IMG/VR virus record: IMGVR_UViG_3300039036_000145
Span: 1 to 34,104 of that record
DNA: 34,104 bases
Origin: a virus
Strand: one strand, 5' to 3'
Shown here in pieces: positions 2,472 through 32,289 of this stretch (position 1 is its first letter; every line of letters begins with the position of its first letter). Below the pieces are notes generated by a model, which made no database searches, had not been told where the DNA came from, and worked only from the letters and a program-made list of their open reading frames with translations. A program made the position numbers and the translations under genes.

Positions 2472-3566
2472 TTATACCTTTGTTAATAATAGTTTTGATT
2501 TTGGTGTAATGTCAAGATTTATTCTTTCTAATAATGTGTTGTCCAAAGTTGTGTTTGCACCATTACCATCAAATAAATAAATAAAATTGTCTTTTAATGT
2601 GCAACTCATTCCGATTTTTGGAATAACATCAACTGTATATGAATCATATTCGCCAGTTGTTAAATCAAATGTCCTGATAGTGTTGTCGTATATAAAACCA
2701 CCTGAATAACCAGCTCCTAATATCATATAAATCTTGTTGTTGTAGTACACCATATTATGACCTAATGATTTTTTAGTGACTATGTCTAAATCATTCCAAG
2801 TCCCGTCTGTGAAGTTATAAAAAGCAAAATTATTGATTGCTCCGCCATTATAACCACCATGTATATATAAGTTGTCTCCAACCAATACTGAAGCATGTAA
2901 ATAAGTTGAGGTGTGTAATGGTGGTAAATAAGTCAGGGATTGTGTGACTAAGTTGTAGCTTATAACATCTGTTGTTATACCCGCCGATGTTGAACCACCA
3001 GTTATAATGAGTTCATCACCTTTTATGTCCATTGTATGACCATATCTACCTGCACCAGTTAATGCAGTTGTTATTTGTGTCCAAGTATCAGTTGTGATGT
3101 TGTATTTCCATAAATCATCTAGTTTTGAGCCATCATCACCACCATAAACATAAATATCATCGTTATATAATGCTGATGCTGGGTATCTTCTGGCTGTTGC
3201 TCCTGATGATAGTTGCGACCATTTATTTAGTTCAATGTCATAAGACCATAATTCGTCTTTGAATGAAGACCCATATTTTCCACCAAACATATAAATTTTA
3301 TTATTGTATAATTCAGTACAACCACCATAACCTTTCTCACCATCTCTAACACCGAATAGTTTGATTTGGTAATTATTTAAAATATTGTTGTCATATTCAA
3401 TGTATTTTGTGGTGTCAAAAGTACCATCTGATGAATAAACGAAACCGCCTACTTTGCTTTTGATTTCTAATAGTGTGTTTGTGGTTTTTTGTACTTGTTG
3501 TTCTTGTTCTTGTTGTTGTGCTAGTTGTTGTTTGTTAAGTTCGTCAAAAAATTCTTGTATAGTCAT
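2472..3566 (-). CDS. Kelch-repeat beta-propeller, likely tail receptor-binding protein
   Basis: The product has 364 residues. Residues 1-45 are Gln-rich and helical (QQLAQQQEQEQQVQ), probably a trimerising or anchoring segment. From about residue 80 there are six Kelch-type units, each with [I/L]Y-[M/V/I]-x-GG or a degenerate form, followed by a Y/W pair (for example IYMFGG...WSYD...KWSQL, IYVYGG...WKYN...TWTQI). Six units can close one propeller. No signal peptide is present, and the gene lies between fibre and lysis-type genes, so a virion adhesin role is inferred. It has its own SD (AAGGA) and an upstream TATAAATAA motif at 3595-3603. Kelch propellers are uncommon as phage tail tips. Confidence 0.7.
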   Translation of the reverse strand: MTIQEFFDELNKQQLAQQQEQEQQVQKTTNTLLEIKSKVGGFVYSSDGTFDTTKYIEYDNNILNNYQIKLFGVRDGEKGYGGCTELYNNKIYMFGGKYGSSFKDELWSYDIELNKWSQLSSGATARRYPASALYNDDIYVYGGDDGSKLDDLWKYNITTDTWTQITTALTGAGRYGHTMDIKGDELIITGGSTSAGITTDVISYNLVTQSLTYLPPLHTSTYLHASVLVGDNLYIHGGYNGGAINNFAFYNFTDGTWNDLDIVTKKSLGHNMVYYNNKIYMILGAGYSGGFIYDNTIRTFDLTTGEYDSYTVDVIPKIGMSCTLKDNFIYLFDGNGANTTLDNTLLERINLDITPKSKLLLTKV

Positions 3567-22514: not shown

Positions 22515-22534
22515 TAGCAGAATAACTTCTGCTA
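22515..22534. other. 8-bp hairpin at the end of the lipoprotein gene
   Basis: tagcagaa-taac-ttctgcta is a perfect 8-bp stem with a tetraloop; it ends on the stop codon of the minus-strand lipoprotein gene. No T-run follows, so termination is uncertain. Confidence 0.4.
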
Positions 22535-23167
22535 GTTAATAGAGTATTCTTCTATTAATTTATACTGTTGATATACTTTGATTGATTGCATATCACCATA
22601 CACTTTATAAGTATCTATATCAGTATTGTATATTTTACTTTTGTACGTAAAAGGTTTAACAAATTTTATACCTATATCAGCATAAAATGAATGGTGTGCT
22701 TCTTTTGCTTCTTCTGGAGACATATGCATTCTTTTTAAAACTAATTGGTTATCACTATTTACACTATATGGAAAATATTCCATGTTGTTAATTTCTATTA
22801 TTCTACTAAAAAACATAAAATCGAAATCTGGGCCTCCACCCCAAATATCATAAACTGTCAATATTTGCGTATCAGCATCATATGAATCATATAAATCAAC
22901 ACTATATGTTATTGTTTCTTGCTCTTCAAGGAATTTGTTTATTCTAGTGTTGTATTCATAAGTTGACTCATATGTATCTTTTGTTGCTAATTTTTTCAAT
23001 TCATTGAATTTGTTGTCATATTCATCCATTGTGTGAATATAAGGTTGAGCATGAGTTGGAACATTTTCAGGAGGTGTATATTCCTCTGTTATCGTTGTTT
23101 CGCCGCCGCATCCTTGTAGTGCTAAAAGTATCATTATTGATACTATTCCTGCTATAGTTGTTTTCAT
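22532..23167 (-). CDS. Prophage-encoded lipoprotein
   Basis: The product has 211 residues. It begins MKTTIAGIVSIMILLALQGC, a type II signal peptide with the lipidated Cys at residue 20 and Gly at +2, which does not look like an inner-membrane retention signal. The mature part is acidic with a Pro/Thr linker, then a mixed fold (TYSVDLYDSYDADTQILTVYDIW). It has SD AAGGAG and its own TATAAATAAAA motif 57 bases upstream. Surface lipoproteins carried by prophages often alter host phage receptors or exclude superinfection; that role is inferred, not shown. It could also be part of the late operon leader. Confidence 0.65.
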   Translation of the reverse strand: MKTTIAGIVSIMILLALQGCGGETTITEEYTPPENVPTHAQPYIHTMDEYDNKFNELKKLATKDTYESTYEYNTRINKFLEEQETITYSVDLYDSYDADTQILTVYDIWGGGPDFDFMFFSRIIEINNMEYFPYSVNSDNQLVLKRMHMSPEEAKEAHHSFYADIGIKFVKPFTYKSKIYNTDIDTYKVYGDMQSIKVYQQYKLIEEYSIN

Positions 23168-23533
23168 TCTATTCTCCTTGTGTTGTTTATTTTACATTAA
23201 TGAAATATAATATTTTTATTTATATTCTATTACCATTTCTTATTAATTATAAGGAATATAACCTTAATTCAATCTTTAATTTTTACCTCTGAGAAACCCC
23301 TTATTATATGGGCATTTTAACCCAATCAGTAATTTTGAAGTCTGTAACTAAAAAAGTTGGGTACTTGCGCATCACCTACGGGTCTTGTTTCTGAAAGATA
23401 GTTAAAAATATTTTGGTGTAAAAAGAGATGTAAAAAAGATGTAAAAAAAAGAGGCGAAAAAGGAGAGTTTATTAAGATAAAATTCAGGTTTTAATTCTTA
23501 TAACTGCTCATCTAAAAAACATAAGGAATAAAA
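23168..23533. promoter_or_regulatory. Divergent intergenic region between late and accessory genes
   Basis: This 366-bp gap separates the minus-strand lipoprotein gene from the plus-strand small-gene array. It holds the TATAAATAAAA motif at 23214-23224 (minus strand), tandem TGTAAAAA repeats at 23415-23450, and a comparatively GC-rich patch around 23360-23395 (cgcatcacctacgggtc) that I cannot explain. The 30 bases before the first small gene resemble the leader of the third gene of the array (near 24155-24182). Confidence 0.45.
23415..23450 (+). repeat. Tandem GRTGTAAAAA repeats
   Basis: Three units start at 23415, 23427 and 23438 (ggtgtaaaaa, gatgtaaaaaa, gatgtaaaaaaaa), spaced 11-12 bases apart, about one helical turn. 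They lie about 85-120 bases before the first gene of the small-gene array and could be an operator. Confidence 0.45.
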
Positions 23534-23833
23534 ATGGAATTAACAATAGCAGAAGAATATAATATTGAGATTATGAGCGATGATTTTATAGAGTTGGTAC
23601 ATAATTATTTTTCGGTTGAAGCTACTGAACGATTTATGAATAGATATAAAGCAAAACTGGATAATCTTGGAGGCTTATTTGAAGGTTGGAAAGAAGTTGG
23701 TGGGAAAGTATGGGAACGCCAACAACAAGAATTATTAGAGTGTTGTAACCCAGAAGAAAAACTATGGGTGTATGAACAAACGGGATATGAAGAATTTTTA
23801 ACAGATGATGTGAGAGAATTGTTCGTATTTTAG
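23534..23833 (+). CDS. Small acidic protein with C-terminal DDVRELFVF, array gene 1
   Basis: The product has 99 residues, acidic and mostly helical (EEYNIEIMSDDFIELVHNYF, LGGLFEGWKEVGGKVWE). No membrane span or signal is present. The last nine residues, DDVRELFVF, recur almost unchanged at the end of the next gene and more loosely at the end of the third. The DNA match runs past the stop codon (tagccaagatt). SD AAGGA precedes the ATG. I do not recognise a family; function is unknown. Confidence 0.65.
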   Translation: MELTIAEEYNIEIMSDDFIELVHNYFSVEATERFMNRYKAKLDNLGGLFEGWKEVGGKVWERQQQELLECCNPEEKLWVYEQTGYEEFLTDDVRELFVF

Positions 23834-23848
23834 CCAAGATTAAATTAA
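23802..23848 (+). repeat. 3' repeat copy 1 (gene end plus downstream)
   Basis: This 47-bp segment matches 24095-24141 at 43 of 47 positions by eye. It covers the last nine codons, the TAG stop and 15 bases beyond, including tagccaagatt. Identity continues into non-coding sequence, so recent duplication or recombination at this point explains it better than protein selection alone. Confidence 0.75.
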
Positions 23849-23892
23849 GATTGGAATCAATATAATTAATAAACAGAGAAAAGGAATTGAAG

Positions 23893-24126
23893 ATGAAAGT
23901 TACAATCCATTCAGCAACAGACTGTTTTGTTTTAACAGTTTTATATTCACACGGTGGTCGAAATAGTATTGTTGTATCATTTGGTGAAGAATATAATAAA
24001 ACAAGAGAAGAAGCATCGAAAGAGTTGAAAGAACGAATTGTTGAAGAGGGTTATGAAATAACATATGATAAATACACACCAGTTGAGTTTTATGCAGATG
24101 ATGTAAGAGATTTATTCGTATTTTAG
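23893..24126 (+). CDS. Small protein with C-terminal DDVRDLFVF, array gene 2
   Basis: The product has 77 residues from the ATG at 23893 (SD AAGGA seven bases upstream; a TTG two codons earlier is less likely). The N-terminal half is beta-strand-rich (VTIHSATDCFVLTVLYSHGG), followed by a Lys/Glu-rich helix (KTREEASKELKERIVEEGY). This looks like a small alpha/beta fold such as dsRBD-like or ferredoxin-like folds. The last residues, DDVRDLFVF, repeat those of gene 1. No function can be assigned. Confidence 0.65.
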   Translation: MKVTIHSATDCFVLTVLYSHGGRNSIVVSFGEEYNKTREEASKELKERIVEEGYEITYDKYTPVEFYADDVRDLFVF

Positions 24127-24141
24127 CCAAGATTGAATTAA
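24095..24141 (+). repeat. 3' repeat copy 2 (gene end plus downstream)
   Basis: This is the second copy of the segment at 23802-23848. It ends gene 2 and runs 15 bases past its stop. The third gene ends with the same peptide pattern (DVKNLFIF), but its DNA is diverged and the non-coding part is absent. Confidence 0.75.
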
Positions 24142-24182
24142 AGTATTTTTTTATATAATCATCTTAAAACATAAGGGATAAG

Positions 24183-24671
24183 ATGAAAGTTGTAGGCGAA
24201 ATACGAAATAAGTACAAAGATGAATTTAACAATCATACAGCAATGAAAGAATTCATGAAACGAGAGGGACTTGAAATCCCTATTAACATCGTGTGTGGTG
24301 GTCTATTCTTTGCTCCTGCGTTGTGGATGACAAAAATCAATAAAATTATGCAATCAAATACTTTAAGTCCTATTGACCTCAACAACTTATTTCAAAATAT
24401 TGGCTGGTTAGTAAGCCCACCTAACGAGATTGAAGATTATAATGAAAATTTATCTGCTGAGTTTGATGAATATTATGATTTTGATGAAGACAATCCATTT
24501 GAGAGTGATTATGCGATGACTAAGATTATTATGAATAAAATTATACCTGCATATGTATCAATGGTTATAGACGATGTGAGGACTATTATACCAGATGATA
24601 TACTGAATGATTATGCTAAAACATATGATTGGCTACTCCAAAAAGATGTAAAAAATCTATTTATTTTCTAA
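24183..24671 (+). CDS. Acidic protein with C-terminal DVKNLFIF, array gene 3
   Basis: The product has 162 residues. It has a helical N-terminus, a hydrophobic stretch (NIVCGGLFFAPALWM, about residues 38-52) too short and mixed to be a sure membrane span, and a very acidic centre (EFDEYYDFDEDNPFESD). The end, DVKNLFIF, parallels genes 1 and 2. Its leader (tcatcttaaaacataaggg) resembles that of gene 1 (tcatctaaaaaacataagg). No family is recognised. Confidence 0.6.
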   Translation: MKVVGEIRNKYKDEFNNHTAMKEFMKREGLEIPINIVCGGLFFAPALWMTKINKIMQSNTLSPIDLNNLFQNIGWLVSPPNEIEDYNENLSAEFDEYYDFDEDNPFESDYAMTKIIMNKIIPAYVSMVIDDVRTIIPDDILNDYAKTYDWLLQKDVKNLFIF

Positions 24672-25137: not shown

Positions 25138-25431
25138 ATGGAAAAAATCTCAATAAATGATACCTATTTTGCAGATAATAAAACATATATGACAGAATCA
25201 GAAATAAGATCATGGGCGCGTGAGAATAATTACGGTGATGAGTTTACAACATTATCATTTTTGATAGAATTATATAATGACAATCATGAGGAACAAATTA
25301 GTTTAATGGAAATTTTTAAAGTTAAGATTGATGATGAGGAAATACTCGTTGAATCGTCAAGAGGTGTTTTATTAGATGTTATGAAAGCACATGGTAAAGT
25401 AAAAGGCCCTACTGGGTGGAAAATAGTTTAA
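25138..25431 (+). CDS. Small protein of unknown function
   Basis: The product has 97 residues, acidic, alpha/beta (YMTESEIRSWARENNYGDEFTTLSFLIELY; ISLMEIFKVKIDDEEILVE). The SD is AAAGGA and a possible -10 (taatataaaag) lies about 25 bases before. It stands alone between the small minus-strand gene and the gene-free region, divergent from the former. A regulator role is possible from its place beside the likely control region, but no HTH is obvious. Confidence 0.5.
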   Translation: MEKISINDTYFADNKTYMTESEIRSWARENNYGDEFTTLSFLIELYNDNHEEQISLMEIFKVKIDDEEILVESSRGVLLDVMKAHGKVKGPTGWKIV

Positions 25432-25754
25432 TTATTTCCACCTTGTTTTGAACTTGATTGATATTATTTATTATGATTGTTGTTGAATACCATTTCATTT
25501 CGAGGCAAGCTCGACTCCTTTTAATGAATTGATTGTCTTATTCATCGGGTTATTGATTTTCAATTTATTTTTATAAGGAAAATGTTCTCTAAATATGCCG
25601 AAGATCATCAATGTTGGGTTTTAAAAAGAAAAATGTTGTTGTAAAATGTATCCTCCACCCTCTATAACCCCCTTACTCCCTCACTTCTAGCTCTACCCTC
25701 CGAATTTTCCAACACAAAAACCAGAACTTTTCGGCTCCTCTCTTTATATACTCT

Positions 25755-25823
25755 CTCTTTTTATATATATATATACTATATTATTATATATATTAATAAA
25801 AAAGTAGTATATATATATAAGAG
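25755..25823. repeat. AT-rich palindrome, possible DNA unwinding element
   Basis: A left arm ending in tatatatatatatacta (about 25762-25778) is complementary to tagtatatatatataag (about 25805-25821), with CTCT/AGAG at the outer ends. The loop is itself A/T only except one G. Such sequence melts easily and could extrude a cruciform. Confidence 0.6.
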
Positions 25824-26107
25824 TAAGGCAATAAGGGCAGTCTGGGGAATTTCAGCTACAACATTTTTTTACACATTTACAACAAAACATACATAACACC
25901 CTACAATAACAACATCTTCTCTTTTTACAACAACAAAAACGGCAAGGATTTTCGTAATATCATAGACTATGGTTAAGGTTTAATTAAGTTTACATAATTC
26001 AAGACATAATAATCAACATCCTGTTTGTTGTGTTTTTATGAAAAAGTATATTTCATCCCTCTCGTAGCAACCCATTTTCTTAAAAATCTACAAAAAAAAT
26101 ATTCCTT

Positions 26108-26391
26108 CATAAATAAAATCATAATTTGAAAATGTTTTGTAAAATGAATAGTAACGAGACAACAATTGCTTTTATGGTTTTTATTTTGGTACTGTCTCGT
26201 TAAAAATTATAATTTTTGTAAAACATACATAAATAAAAATATGAATTCAAAAATTGTAAAAAACTAAAACTTTTTGAATGAGCATATAAATAAAAATACA
26301 AACAACGAATAAATTGAATTTTTTTGTAAAATATTTACATACCATAAATGTACTTAAAACAAACTTTTTTTAGTTGTAACATAAATAAAAG
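26108..26391 (+). repeat. Iteron-like [C/T]ATAAATAAAA and TTTTGTAAAA repeats
   Basis: The first motif occurs at 26108, 26228, 26285 and 26380, all on the plus strand. TTTTGTAAAA occurs at 26135, 26214 and 26322. They alternate with irregular spacing (57-120 bp), unlike strict plasmid iterons. They may be initiator or regulator sites, or the plus-strand version of the late-promoter motif. Confidence 0.45.
26152..26202. repeat. 10-bp perfect inverted repeat
   Basis: taacgagaca (26152-26161) and tgtctcgtta (26193-26202) form a perfect 10-bp stem with a 31-base loop, between iteron-like repeats. Confidence 0.6.
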
Positions 26392-26397
26392 TAGATA

Positions 26398-26526
26398 TAA
26401 AATATTTTAGTAGGCGACCAACCTATCACATCATCTTTTCTTAACTGAAAATGATAAAGGGAAACTTCGGTTTCCTACTAAAGTATTTTAAGGTTAAGAT
26501 TAGATGATGTGATAGTTGGTCGCTAC
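26398..26526 (+). ncRNA. Interleaved inverted-repeat element, possible pseudoknotted RNA
   Basis: There are two long inverted repeats in crossed order. Segment A (26398-26414) pairs with A' (26474-26490) over 17 positions with one G-U. Segment B (26410-26445) pairs with B' (26493-26526): gcgaccaac, tatcacatcatc and cttaac each match perfectly, separated by one bulge and a small internal loop. Between them, ggaaac-ttcg-gtttcc (26460-26475) forms a UUCG tetraloop hairpin. The order is A-B-hairpin-A'-B', which is that of a pseudoknot or two exclusive folds. The -10-like tataaaat (26395-26402) overlaps A, so an RNA starting near 26409 would begin exactly at the base of stem B. An operator or origin DNA element is the alternative. 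Confidence 0.5.
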
Positions 26527-26598
26527 CCACAACATCTTTTCTCATACTCCTTATCTTACTAAATTTTAAGACCAACACAAAACAAGGAGACTAAAATC

Positions 26599-27348
26599 AT
26601 GTCGTTTTTAAATACAAACAAAAAAGGTGACCTAAAAGGGTCAGTACTTACACCAACAGTAGAACAAAAAGAAGCGGATAATAGATTGTTATCACCTAAA
26701 AACATCCCAGATAACACAGTTATTAAATTTAGAATTCTAAAAGATGAAACAGAAACCGTACCATATGCTTTTGAAGGCTATAAATTAAAAAAATATAAGT
26801 TTTATAAGTCTAAATTGCACCCAAAAATGGCACAACATAGCAATCATCACAAGCAACAACTGAATGAATTATGGAACAATGACATCCCTAAAAATGAAAT
26901 GTCTAAATTGTTTGAATATGATTTGTCAAAAGAATATTTGATAAGAATATTTATTACTGATGCCCCAGATGAATTTTTAAAATTAAATAACATTGAAACC
27001 CTCACCGACAGAGTCAAGTATATAAGGGTTTATCCAGCACAAAAAACACACACCGCTAAAAATCATCTATGGTCTACCATTAGCAGTATAGTTGGTATGA
27101 TGGATGATGAGGGTAAATTAGCAGGAAAAGAGACAAACCTCTGGAACTTTGATACTGAGATAGCAAGTCTTGATTTTCAATTACACAAAATCGATAAAAA
27201 AAATATCGAGTATGATGCTAATTACAGCACCTTTGATGATACTTCTATCGTTAGTCAGTTACCAGCATTGAGTGAGTCAATCGAACCGTTGGAAAACTTC
27301 TATGAAGAAGCAACAGACGAATTAATTAATGAATTTTTAGGAGAATAA
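26599..27348 (+). CDS. First replication-operon protein, possible ssDNA-binding protein
   Basis: The product has 249 residues. The N-terminus (SFLNTNKKGDLKGS) is followed by a beta-rich core containing VIKFRILKDETETVPYAFEGYKLKKYKF and YIRVYPAQKTHTAKNHLW, and a strongly acidic tail ending TDELINEFLGE. A beta core plus acidic tail in the first gene of a primase-helicase operon is typical of phage single-stranded DNA-binding proteins, but no OB-fold motif can be confirmed by eye. The start has SD AAGGAG and a structured leader lies 73 bases upstream. Confidence 0.5.
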   Translation: MSFLNTNKKGDLKGSVLTPTVEQKEADNRLLSPKNIPDNTVIKFRILKDETETVPYAFEGYKLKKYKFYKSKLHPKMAQHSNHHKQQLNELWNNDIPKNEMSKLFEYDLSKEYLIRIFITDAPDEFLKLNNIETLTDRVKYIRVYPAQKTHTAKNHLWSTISSIVGMMDDEGKLAGKETNLWNFDTEIASLDFQLHKIDKKNIEYDANYSTFDDTSIVSQLPALSESIEPLENFYEEATDELINEFLGE

Positions 27349-27874: not shown

Positions 27875-29554
27875 ATGAGTGCTGCAGAACAAGTAAAAAA
27901 ACAATTATTATCAAACCCTAATCATTATGAGCCAGCGGAAATGACTAAACCCTGGAACATCATTAAGGATTTGGGGTATATTTGTTATGTAGATAAAGAA
28001 GCTAAAAGTACCAGATGGGAGCTATTCTCTCTCAAAAGGACAGCTTCTGGTGAATTAGACCATGTAGTCAAGGACTCTAAACAAAGTTTGATTGATTTTT
28101 TAGACAGTCTTAGTTACCAACAAAACTTCTATCTTGTTGTCCCTAAAACTGAAAAAGGAATTATTATTGATTACACCACAAAAAGATTAAAATTCAGAAT
28201 GTCAGATATGTCTAGGTTTATGCAATTACCATTTGATTTCAAACCTGCAAAAAAATTAACAAATAATGTCTATTATGAAAATAATATAAAAAAAGTAAAT
28301 ACTTATACATATCCTTTAAAACATTCATACACCGGTAAATTTCAATTTACTCCTAAAGAATTAGAACACATAACTCTATTTTTGAAAATTTTAAAAAATG
28401 TAACGGGTGGAAACGATGAAGCTACATATGCCTTGCATTGGTTCGTTAGAAATTATCAAACATTAACACAAGCTGAAAATTGTCTTGTATTATGTGGTGA
28501 ATCTGGAAGTGGAAAAGGGGTGTTATTTGAAATAATAAATGCTCTTTACTCATCTTCTTATGTGTCAAAAGGGTCTAACAAAAACAATATTTTTATAAAA
28601 GTTGAGAATGAAACATTAATGAATAAATTGTATTACTTTGCTGATGAAGTGAAAAATCTTCAAGATTATTGGGAGTCTGTAAAATCATATGTAGCAAATA
28701 GCACATTTCAATTAAAAGCATTATATAAAGGCTCTAAAGATTACCATAACTTTGCAAACTTTATATTTATGACCAACACTCAAATAGGCGAATTACCATT
28801 TACCATCCCAGAACAAGTGGACAGAAGAATTTCTTGTTTTGAAAGTCACAATGTATTGGCTGATAATGATTGGTTCGACGCAGAAGCCTTGAAAAAAAGT
28901 GGGTTTTTGACTAGTAATGAGTTTACTGACACTATCGCTAGATTTTTTAGTACCTTTGAATATGATTTTGAGATTATAAGAAAGCCTTATGATAATGAAA
29001 TCAGAAAAGAGATGTTAGAGGGTGGTTTAGGTGCTACCAGAGGTTACGCACAAGCACTTCTAAGTAAGAATATAGGATGGTTTGAAAAAAATGGAATTCA
29101 TAATATTGATTGGATAAACGCAGATGGCTCTCACGCTAAAAATTATAGTTGGTTCAAACATTTACAAGACATATTTTCAAACGGTTATATATCTGTGAAA
29201 GATATGAAAAACTTATTTCAATTTATGTTCCCGCACGAAAATTATACCCCGAAAGTATTAGCTAGTTATGGTTTGATTTCCACTTCTATGACAAAAACAG
29301 TACATAAATGGGTCAATGGTAAACAAACTGATGAAAAAGAAACAATATCATTTAGAGGTTGTAAATTGTCTAAGTCAATGAAACTAACAGGAGCTGCTAT
29401 TAACAAAAAAAGCAAATATCCTGATATTTTAGACCTTAGTTATTTGAATATAAAAGACACAAGTACAAATATGAATAATGATTATAGTGAGGAGGAACAA
29501 GATGAGATTTATGAACCCGAATATTACTATTATGATGACGAAGACTGTTTTTAG
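27875..29554 (+). CDS. SF3-type replicative helicase (D5-like)
   Basis: The product has 559 residues. The helicase core has Walker A GESGSGKG (208-215), Walker B YYFADEV (253-259), motif C NFIFMTN (295-301) and an arginine pair (DRRI, 317-318) as arginine finger. The N-terminal ~150 residues are a separate alpha/beta domain and the C-terminus has a Tyr/Asp/Glu-rich tail. SF3 helicases form hexamers that unwind DNA at phage origins, usually with a partner primase, which is the next gene. The two genes overlap. The start is two bases after the previous stop. Confidence 0.85.
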   Translation: MSAAEQVKKQLLSNPNHYEPAEMTKPWNIIKDLGYICYVDKEAKSTRWELFSLKRTASGELDHVVKDSKQSLIDFLDSLSYQQNFYLVVPKTEKGIIIDYTTKRLKFRMSDMSRFMQLPFDFKPAKKLTNNVYYENNIKKVNTYTYPLKHSYTGKFQFTPKELEHITLFLKILKNVTGGNDEATYALHWFVRNYQTLTQAENCLVLCGESGSGKGVLFEIINALYSSSYVSKGSNKNNIFIKVENETLMNKLYYFADEVKNLQDYWESVKSYVANSTFQLKALYKGSKDYHNFANFIFMTNTQIGELPFTIPEQVDRRISCFESHNVLADNDWFDAEALKKSGFLTSNEFTDTIARFFSTFEYDFEIIRKPYDNEIRKEMLEGGLGATRGYAQALLSKNIGWFEKNGIHNIDWINADGSHAKNYSWFKHLQDIFSNGYISVKDMKNLFQFMFPHENYTPKVLASYGLISTSMTKTVHKWVNGKQTDEKETISFRGCKLSKSMKLTGAAINKKSKYPDILDLSYLNIKDTSTNMNNDYSEEEQDEIYEPEYYYYDDEDCF

Positions 29555-30395
29555 TATAAATCATATGTCAATCCGAATTGATAAACCTTATATGCAAAAA
29601 ACAGATAAAACATCTCCTTATGGTTTCAGTTATGTGCCGATGAAATGGGAAGATATAGGAAAAAAGCTTAAAGCTAATGTAAGTTATACAGCTGGGGCGA
29701 TGAAAGACAATCACCGAAAAGAAACAAATTATATTCAATGTACTATGGACTTGATTATGTATGACATTGATGATGGAATGACTGTTGAAGAATGTCAAGA
29801 AACCCTCAAAGATGTAAAACACATAATTTTAACAACCGAAAATCATAAAAAAGATAAACACGGAATTGTGTGTGACCGATTTCGAGTGATTATTCAAATG
29901 GATACGTCTTTAGTTGAATGTAATAGTGAGGAATATAAACAAGCATACAAAACATTAGGTACAGAATTAGGTTTGCCTTATGATAACGCAGCCCAAGATA
30001 TTTCAAGATTTTTCGCTTCATTTGCGGGTGCTGAATATTATTATAATGATGGTGAACCGATTGATTTCAATGATTATATTTTTAAAGCACGAAGAAACTT
30101 AATTATAAAACGAAGGAATAGTGGCTTATTAACAATGAACAGTTATTCATCTGGGGCAAAAATAAATCAACAAATAACACCAGATAATTTGAAAAATAAC
30201 GCAACATTCATAAAATATAAAAACGAGATTGTTCCTGGTAATATGCATTTCGGAATGATGTCAATTATTGGTTATTTTAGGAAATCAGGATGCCAAGAAC
30301 AAGATGTACTTGAATGGCTTTTAGCACATTACCCACAAAGTAAAGAGGGTATTTATAACAGAATCAAAGTGTACAACAAACCTTTCAAACCATGA
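29502..30395 (+). CDS. Archaeo-eukaryotic-type primase (AEP), frame broken near the C-terminus
   Basis: From the ATG at 29502 (SD GAGGAGG) the product has 297 residues; an ATG at 29567 is the other option. It contains YDIDDG (Asp88/Asp90), then TTENHKKDKHG (His115) and DRFRVIIQMD (Asp134), and DISRFFASF, the metal- and nucleotide-binding pattern of AEP primases. It overlaps the helicase gene by 53 bases. The frame ends early at TGA 30393-30395; in the +1 frame a sensible C-terminus continues for 35 codons (HDDYDLVTKAWIDYYDGTNF...). So the intact protein is likely about 330 residues. Primers made here would feed the upstream helicase. Confidence 0.75.
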   Translation: MRFMNPNITIMMTKTVFSINHMSIRIDKPYMQKTDKTSPYGFSYVPMKWEDIGKKLKANVSYTAGAMKDNHRKETNYIQCTMDLIMYDIDDGMTVEECQETLKDVKHIILTTENHKKDKHGIVCDRFRVIIQMDTSLVECNSEEYKQAYKTLGTELGLPYDNAAQDISRFFASFAGAEYYYNDGEPIDFNDYIFKARRNLIIKRRNSGLLTMNSYSSGAKINQQITPDNLKNNATFIKYKNEIVPGNMHFGMMSIIGYFRKSGCQEQDVLEWLLAHYPQSKEGIYNRIKVYNKPFKP

Positions 30396-30982: not shown

Positions 30983-31882
30983 TTGAAAAATTTTGATTAT
31001 ATTGTTGGAAACCCACCTTATCATTATCCAAGTGGAGTAAATCCTGCAGAAAAGTTATATGTTGATATAAGTATTAAATGTTTGGAAATCCTGAAACCAG
31101 ATGGAATCATTTCTTTTATAACACCTGCTGCTATAATGCAAAAAGGGTTATTAAATAAAGTATTTAACAAAATAAAAAATAATATTATTTCAGTTAATTT
31201 TGATTCTGATAAATTTTTTAATATTGGTCAGACTGTTATTACTTGGAATTATTCACCAAATTATACAGGTATGATTAGTTTGATCGAAGATGGCAAAAAA
31301 AGAGTGGTTGAAGGAATCGATGATGTATACCGAAAAAAAGATGCGGATTTCTATAAGATTATGAAGAAGGTGGATATCACATATAATAACAAAGATAAAC
31401 TTAGGGTTTCAATCTGTGGTAGTGGAACTGTGCAAAAAAAAATTTCTGATACTAAAACTGATGAATATACAGAAGAAGTCTGGTGCAATTCTAAAAAACA
31501 TAGGATAAAATATTGCAAAATGTCAGATAAAGTTAATGTGTTAAACGAGAAAAGATTAATTATTCCTTATGTTGGTGGTTGGTCTGAAGGTGCATTTATT
31601 TCTGATTTAGAGGTTAATAAGAATACTACTTTGTCACATAAGGGTATAAAGCAAAATGAATTAGAGAACATGAAAAATTATTTAAATTCTAAGCTTATTT
31701 CTTATTTAGTCGTAAACTTTTCAATAGTAGTTAAACCTAGTGCATATTACACATTTGTATCCAAGCTTCCTGAGCTTGATTTTTCTAAACCATGGACAGA
31801 TGAAGAATTATACAAAGAATTCAACATCACCGAAGAAGAACAAAAAATAATTGAAGATTGGTACGAAGAATGGAAGAACTAG
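30983..31882 (+). CDS. N6-adenine DNA methyltransferase, catalytic/target-recognition half
   Basis: The product has 299 residues from a TTG start (SD AAGGAG). It begins at once with FDYIVGNPPYHYPSG, the catalytic motif IV (NPPY, residues 10-13) of N6-adenine methyltransferases of the Eco57I/gamma kind, then DGIISFITPAAIM. The C-terminal part (LPELDFSKPWTDEELYKEFNI) resembles the end of such phage enzymes. The SAM-binding motif I is absent and is found in the next gene. It probably works as a two-subunit enzyme that modifies phage DNA. No restriction enzyme gene is nearby. Confidence 0.75.
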   Translation: MKNFDYIVGNPPYHYPSGVNPAEKLYVDISIKCLEILKPDGIISFITPAAIMQKGLLNKVFNKIKNNIISVNFDSDKFFNIGQTVITWNYSPNYTGMISLIEDGKKRVVEGIDDVYRKKDADFYKIMKKVDITYNNKDKLRVSICGSGTVQKKISDTKTDEYTEEVWCNSKKHRIKYCKMSDKVNVLNEKRLIIPYVGGWSEGAFISDLEVNKNTTLSHKGIKQNELENMKNYLNSKLISYLVVNFSIVVKPSAYYTFVSKLPELDFSKPWTDEELYKEFNITEEEQKIIEDWYEEWKN

Positions 31883-32289
31883 AAGAATTTCATTATTCAG
31901 AAGACAGAGATGATAGGGTAAAAGATACCGCAGAAGTTTTTACGCCTGATTCACTAGCTCAAGAGATGTTAGATTCTCTTGATATAGATTGGAATAATCC
32001 TCCTCAAGATGAAACATTTATTGACCCTACTTGTGGTTCAGGAAACTTCTTGGTTGCTTTAGCAAGACGAGACATTCCTTTAAATAATATTTATGGTGTT
32101 GATCTTATGAGTGACAATATTGAAACAACAAAACGAAGATTACGAGAAATCTTTTTAGAAAAGGGAATGAATCCGGAAGCTATTGAATTCCATCTTGATA
32201 GAAATATTATTTGCGAAGACGCTTTAACATACCATTATGAATTCTGGTGGTACGAAGATCCAACAAAAATAGCGGATTTCTTATTCTAA
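31870..32289 (+). CDS. N6-adenine DNA methyltransferase, SAM-binding half
   Basis: From the ATG at 31870 the product has 139 residues; a TTG at 31858 is also open. It contains the motif X-like segment TAEVFTPDSLAQEM (about 20-33) and the motif I DPTCGSGNFLVAL (about 52-64) that binds S-adenosylmethionine. It ends DPTKIADFLF, just where the NPPY motif would follow in a single-chain enzyme. Its start overlaps the previous stop by 13 bases in another frame. Together the two genes make one methyltransferase with its halves in reversed order. Confidence 0.75.
   Translation: MEELEEFHYSEDRDDRVKDTAEVFTPDSLAQEMLDSLDIDWNNPPQDETFIDPTCGSGNFLVALARRDIPLNNIYGVDLMSDNIETTKRRLREIFLEKGMNPEAIEFHLDRNIICEDALTYHYEFWWYEDPTKIADFLF

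Follow-up and report, generated by a model that had tools for sequence, protein, structure and literature searches.

The C-terminal ends of the phage T4 proteins gp43, gp55, and gp33 carry an epitope for the T4 sliding clamp, and these peptides are interchangeable and have one common partner (PMC2988020). In the T4 genome (NC_000866), the ends in question are SLDFLFG, SLDFLYEAND, and TLDFLL. The beta-clamp-binding motif of bacteria is QL(S/D)LF (PMC9690074). Here, we describe three adjacent small genes (genes 1–3) of the phage represented by the IMG/VR virus record IMGVR_UViG_3300039036_000145, the whole sequence of which (34,104 bases; guanine-plus-cytosine content, 31%) is called the window below. 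The three genes encode orphan proteins with unlike bodies that share one C-terminal peptide, namely (D/K)-D-V-(R/K)-x-L-F-(V/I)-F, and a comparison of the gene ends suggests that the protein ending itself has been kept by selection. As a tentative explanation, genes 1–3 may be accessory genes with one C-terminal docking peptide that was spread by local duplication. The genes are as follows:

23534–23833, plus strand: gene 1, orphan small protein of 99 amino acids with the end EEFLTDDVRELFVF (DDVRELFVF); ATG start, AAGGA leader, positive coding score
23893–24126, plus strand: gene 2, orphan small protein of 77 amino acids with the end VEFYADDVRDLFVF (DDVRDLFVF); ATG start, AAAAGGAA leader, positive coding score
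24183–24671, plus strand: gene 3, orphan protein of 162 amino acids with the end DWLLQKDVKNLFIF (KDVKNLFIF); ATG start, ATAAGG leader, positive coding score

These open reading frames (ORFs), their ends, and a 43/47 DNA match between the ends of genes 1 and 2 were all present as given in a preliminary description of the locus. Codon usage supports plus-strand coding for all three genes and disfavours the antisense ORFs (the antisense score of gene 1 is negative). The most likely start of gene 2 is the ATG at 23893, and a TTG is present at 23887.

The principle known from T4 is also found at this locus, i.e. an alike hydrophobic and acidic end is carried by unlike proteins of one phage, but the sequences differ (LDFL(F/Y/L)-like in T4 and DVRxLFVF in the tails described here), and the genes for gp43, gp55, and gp33 do not form an adjacent orphan array, unlike genes 1–3. 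The tails resemble QL(S/D)LF in that they are short, lie near the C-terminus, and contain (D/E/N)-L-F, with the Leu-Phe pair present in all three (ELF, DLF, and NLF), but two more residues, (V/I)-F, precede the stop in the tails. A likeness to the C-terminal tip of single-stranded DNA-binding proteins (SSBs) was also observed, consisting of acidic residues followed by hydrophobic ones and a terminal Phe; the SSB-like protein of the nearest related prophage (L235, 2563–3039) ends in ...DDEAILF. However, the Pro-Phe end of the SSB tip is absent from the tails, which contain no Pro and have a basic residue within the motif, and the bodies do not resemble SSBs. We claim no membership of the tails in the clamp-binding, SSB-tip, or degron families.

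Peptide and DNA at the ends of genes 1–3

The C-terminal likeness comprises the last 8–9 residues of the three proteins. The BLOSUM62 scores of the last eight residues were 37, 32, and 31 for the three gene pairs, which occupied ranks 1–3 among 4,852 neighbouring same-strand ORF pairs drawn from loci of this and related phages; apart from these three, the highest-scoring pair reached 26. When the tail of gene 1 was compared with ~1,830 other phage ORF ends, none scored above 13. The shared ending is a genuine anomaly with strong statistical backing and has so far been encountered a single time.

Genes 1 and 2 share a 57-nucleotide (nt) direct repeat, D1, which is 86% identical, runs 15 nt beyond the stop, and is longer than had been stated in the preliminary description. 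The repeat and the corresponding part of gene 3 are located as follows:

23792–23848, plus strand: copy 1 of direct repeat D1, comprising the last 13 codons of gene 1, the stop, and 15 nt beyond
24085–24141, plus strand: copy 2 of direct repeat D1, comprising the last 13 codons of gene 2, the stop, and 15 nt beyond
24645–24671, plus strand: tail of gene 3 (DVKNLFIF) and stop, with the peptide alike and the DNA diverged (12 of 27 coding nt differ from gene 1)

When the window was searched under relaxed conditions with the tail DNA, only these two copies were recovered (0 in 100 shuffles), and the tail DNA of gene 3 did not match. The tail codons of genes 1 and 2 have three differences, all at third positions (one changing E to D), an outcome with a chance of ~1 in 27, and random substitutions retained the tail score in 7% of open cases. 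The peptide match between genes 1 and 2 proves little by itself, because the DNA was itself copied between them. In the last nine codons of gene 3, on the other hand, 12 of the 27 bases are unlike those of gene 1 and 9 are unlike those of gene 2, whereas the amino acid changes are mostly conservative (R to K and V to I) and the score is 31. Random substitution equalled the score of this tail in only 3 of 200,000 trials when gene 1 was the reference and in 95 of 200,000 when gene 2 was. Gene 3 keeps the peptide despite its diverged DNA, which suggests that the peptide is constrained and that a copied DNA patch does not fully account for the likeness. The tails may be homologous, with the peptide under selection, or convergent; both point to the peptide as what counts. 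These results support the view, already expressed in the preliminary description, that unlike bodies are combined with one constant C-terminal peptide, and the substitution test indicates that conservation concerns the peptide and not the DNA alone.

It could be argued that only genes 1 and 2 are connected, by a recently duplicated patch, and that DVKNLFIF in gene 3 is a coincidence in an AT-rich genome, where codons rich in A or in T bias proteins towards K, N, L, F, and I; the failure of the tail DNA of gene 3 to match the repeat would fit this explanation. Nevertheless, such a coincidence is highly improbable, given that the ~1,830 other phage ORF ends come nowhere near (next best, 13 vs 31) and that gene 3 directly adjoins the other two genes.

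The repeated junction consists of the tail codons, the stop, 15 nt, and then TATAAT at a fixed spacing, and this spacing may be the reason why the non-coding part of the repeat was kept. The following sites, read from the letters of the sequence, are perhaps -10 boxes:

23499–23504, plus strand: TATAAC, candidate -10 box of gene 1
23861–23866, plus strand: TATAAT, candidate -10 box of gene 2, starting 13 nt past repeat copy 1
24154–24159, plus strand: TATAAT, candidate -10 box of gene 3, starting 13 nt past repeat copy 2

A generic promoter scan of the AT-rich region gave no excess of promoter-like sites. A junction that served as a promoter, operator, or recombination site and overlapped the gene ends, with the peptide as a by-product, would explain why the repeat extends 15 nt beyond the stop and why both copies are equally spaced from TATAAT. 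Such a DNA-level origin of the likeness is improbable, however: gene 3 retains the peptide without the DNA, which random change almost never does, and the tail codons of copies 1 and 2 differ at third positions.

The preliminary description also regarded the leaders of genes 1 and 3 as alike. This likeness reaches back to TATAA(C/T) in both genes, but it mostly represents the ordinary ribosome-binding leader of the phage; the CATAAGGAAT leader also precedes the small terminase gene and the TATAAGGAATA leader the tail-fibre gene. The leader likeness is weak evidence because AAGGA-type leaders precede many genes of this phage. The proposed arrangement as cassettes with constant ends holds in so far as the repeated junction lies between body 1 and gene 2 and again between body 2 and gene 3, but no such junction follows gene 3. 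Integron gene cassettes are characterised by an attC site, an imperfect palindrome, together with an integron integrase; the junction here is a direct repeat, and the only integrase recognised is of the phage type. Upstream of gene 1, tandem GATGTAAAAAA units (23422–23450) match the DNA at the start of the gene 3 tail (AAAAAGATGTAAAAAA) at 16 of 16 positions; they may be what is left of a cassette end or just a chance match of A-rich DNA.

Relationships of the bodies and searches for the ending elsewhere

The main rival explanation is ordinary homology, a possible reading of the sequences in which the three genes would be fast-diverged paralogues or chimeras with a longer, now eroded C-terminal segment in common. 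The tail would then be part of the fold of a helical subdomain of ~14–40 residues, of which only the last 8–9 are still alike. BLASTP produced ungapped alignments between genes 1 and 2 (42 residues, 40%, E = 8e-6) and between genes 1 and 3 (27 residues, 41%, E = 0.002), but the scores of both are driven by the tail. When the last 9 residues were removed, the similarity was at shuffle level for genes 1 and 2 (946 of 2,000 shuffles as good) and likewise for genes 1 and 3 (529 of 2,000), and it was also at shuffle level after removal of the last 14 residues. Genes 2 and 3 share a weak match (17–33 of 2,000 shuffles as good; 17 with the last 9 residues removed), but this is situated elsewhere in the proteins, and the lengths of the three proteins differ twofold (77, 99, and 162 amino acids). 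Gene 3 contains a second, internal DDVR segment (YVSMVIDDVRTII, 24551–24580), whose DNA is 70% identical to the tail region of gene 1 over 30 nt and whose resemblance at the protein level is weak (123 of 2,000 shuffles as good); this segment would also fit a common origin. On balance, we consider ordinary homology rather unlikely.

Profile searches of Pfam, PHROGs, NCBIfam, PADLOC, and PDB sequences identified no convincing relative of gene 1 or gene 3 and only marginal matches for gene 2 (E of 0.03 or more). Two of the gene 2 matches were judged to be due to chance, namely one to the Pfam family GARS_C (E = 0.03) and one between residues 23–64 and a stretch of a ~433-amino-acid cellular protein present in many genomes (E = 0.05–0.3). 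In tblastn searches of phage records with genes 1–3, no match below E = 7 was obtained, and no relatives were found in pattern-based IMG/VR scans with the proteins of genes 1 and 3 or in a pattern-based GTDB scan with all three proteins. Rfam and tRNA scans returned nothing.

The ending was sought elsewhere as DDV(R/K)xLF(V/I)F or DV(R/K)xLF(V/I)F at a stop codon. The IMG/VR scans gave 0, then 1 (L002), and then 13 matches, without a convincing gene, and the GTDB species genomes gave at least 117 matches, with no convincing gene among the matches listed. Almost all frames ending in the pattern were very short and were treated as chance, as were the longer ones (60–325 codons), which mostly had variant ends (DVS, DVN, and FFxF), came from unrelated organisms, and were not like genes 1–3. 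In Campylobacterota, 6 of 397 genomes matched the pattern, all with frames of 29 codons or fewer and not above the reversed-pattern control, and no convincing gene with the tail was found in 228 genomes of the family of G309, which is a genome with a related prophage (see below). The idea that the ending is a tag present in many phages or hosts was therefore not borne out; it predicts that related prophages should encode numerous small proteins of unlike sequence with this ending, and none of the collections searched revealed them (for GTDB, among the matches listed), although close relatives of this phage are unsampled in these collections. The tail is known from one phage only and is a single, unreplicated instance.

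These searches also bear on the possibility that Lon, ClpXP, or a tail-specific protease of the host recognises the hydrophobic LFVF end, which would render the proteins short-lived. A degradation signal would agree with two general observations: proteases commonly recognise free C-termini that are hydrophobic, and instability is frequent among small regulatory proteins of phages. However, the ends LFVF, LFVF, and LFIF bear no likeness to the LAA-type end of ssrA-like degrons, and a degradation signal should recur in phages of the same host, whereas the pattern matches in Campylobacterota did not exceed the control. We regard this explanation with considerable doubt.

The phage, its probable host, and neighbouring genes

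In the window, the genes for the portal, large and small terminase, major head, tape measure, and tail proteins are located on the minus strand, and those for replication and methyltransferase functions on the plus strand, with a phage integrase gene close to the right end. The nearest relatives of the tail-tube protein are found in the Nitratiruptor phages NrS-1 to NrS-3 (28% to NrS-1), and those of the integrase include Nitratiruptor and Helicobacter phages. The prophage contig G309:C67, which was reached via Campylobacterota genomes, has the terminase, portal, and tail tube in common with the phage at ~40% (tail tube, 40%). None of the collections searched contained a close relative; for the terminase, the best match was to Roseobacter phage CRP-406 (44%). 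The phage is a distant orphan and a temperate siphophage, and its host is probably a Campylobacterota bacterium because the tail-tube, integrase, and G309:C67 relationships point there. The temperate Nitratiruptor siphophages NrS-1 to NrS-5 and G309:C67 provide the nearest tail-tube relatives but differ from the present phage in that no relatives of genes 1–3 and no such C-terminal end were found in them. Situated between the late and early modules, genes 1–3 probably form a small island of accessory, moron-like genes.

Several other features of the window were observed. On the opposite strand adjoining the array, a putative lipoprotein gene (22532–23167, minus strand; N-terminus ...LALQGCGG) without relatives is possibly another accessory gene. 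A Kelch-repeat protein is encoded amid the late genes (2472–3566; several Kelch profiles, best E = 9e-41). The region 25431–26599, just before the replication genes, is an AT-rich stretch of ~1.2 kb without an obvious gene; it holds direct repeats and inverted repeats (26398–26439/26449–26490 and 26423–26445/26493–26515, 91%) and is a possible origin or operator region. The gene for a DUF5906-type replication protein (27875–29554) overlaps a primase/helicase ORF (29478–30395) by ~77 nt in another frame, and the two may be separate genes or one frameshifted gene. Two overlapping plus-strand ORFs encode an adenine methyltransferase with its parts in swapped order, i.e. 30983–31882 contains NPPY and matches positions 357–428 of the mad2 profile, and 31858–32289 contains the S-adenosylmethionine-binding part and matches positions 268–351. 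This may be the motif order of the beta class, or the gene may be permuted or frameshifted.

A possible docking role of the shared ending

Tentatively, we consider that the ending may work like a C-terminal docking peptide. Local duplication or recombination would have transferred the C-terminal segment and the following junction between genes 1 and 2, and gene 3 would end in an older copy of the segment. Selection would then have kept the peptide as a docking element, i.e. a short linear motif with a free, hydrophobic C-terminus through which the three different bodies reach a single shared partner of the host or the phage. Each gene is preceded by a ribosome-binding leader of its own and may have a separate promoter, and the mode of action would be like that of the interchangeable C-termini of gp43, gp55, and gp33 on the T4 sliding clamp. 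A long-shot candidate for the partner is the host beta clamp or a comparable replication hub, given that clamp-binding peptides end in a way that the core (E/D/N)-L-F resembles. A PHROGs scan of part of the ORFs identified no sliding clamp among them, and the record may be incomplete.

Several points weigh against the docking explanation. The searches found no second phage carrying the peptide, so that the evolutionary evidence comes from this one phage, and they found no homologues of any of the three bodies, so that the modularity is deduced from three sequences of a single record. The peptide match had already been noticed when the substitution test was applied, against which the ranking among ORF pairs is the better guard. 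The two BLASTP alignments also count on this side, and for the clamp in particular, the Gln of QL(S/D)LF is replaced by V in VRELF, VRDLF, and VKNLF (D in a six-residue reading). In addition, single-sequence AlphaFold2 models of genes 1 and 3 had predicted local distance difference test values of 45 and 42, respectively; they were excluded from fold searches and are too poor to show exposure of the tail.

A further proposal, which we consider improbable, is a cassette system in which the body varies, the docking peptide, stop, and promoter junction remain constant, and new effector bodies are recruited to a fixed partner by recombination at the junction. A peptide kept across unlike orphan proteins provides a direct handle on the function of three genes that databases cannot annotate. 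If a layout with a constant tail and a variable body were general, it would offer phages a cheap route to aim new small proteins at one target.
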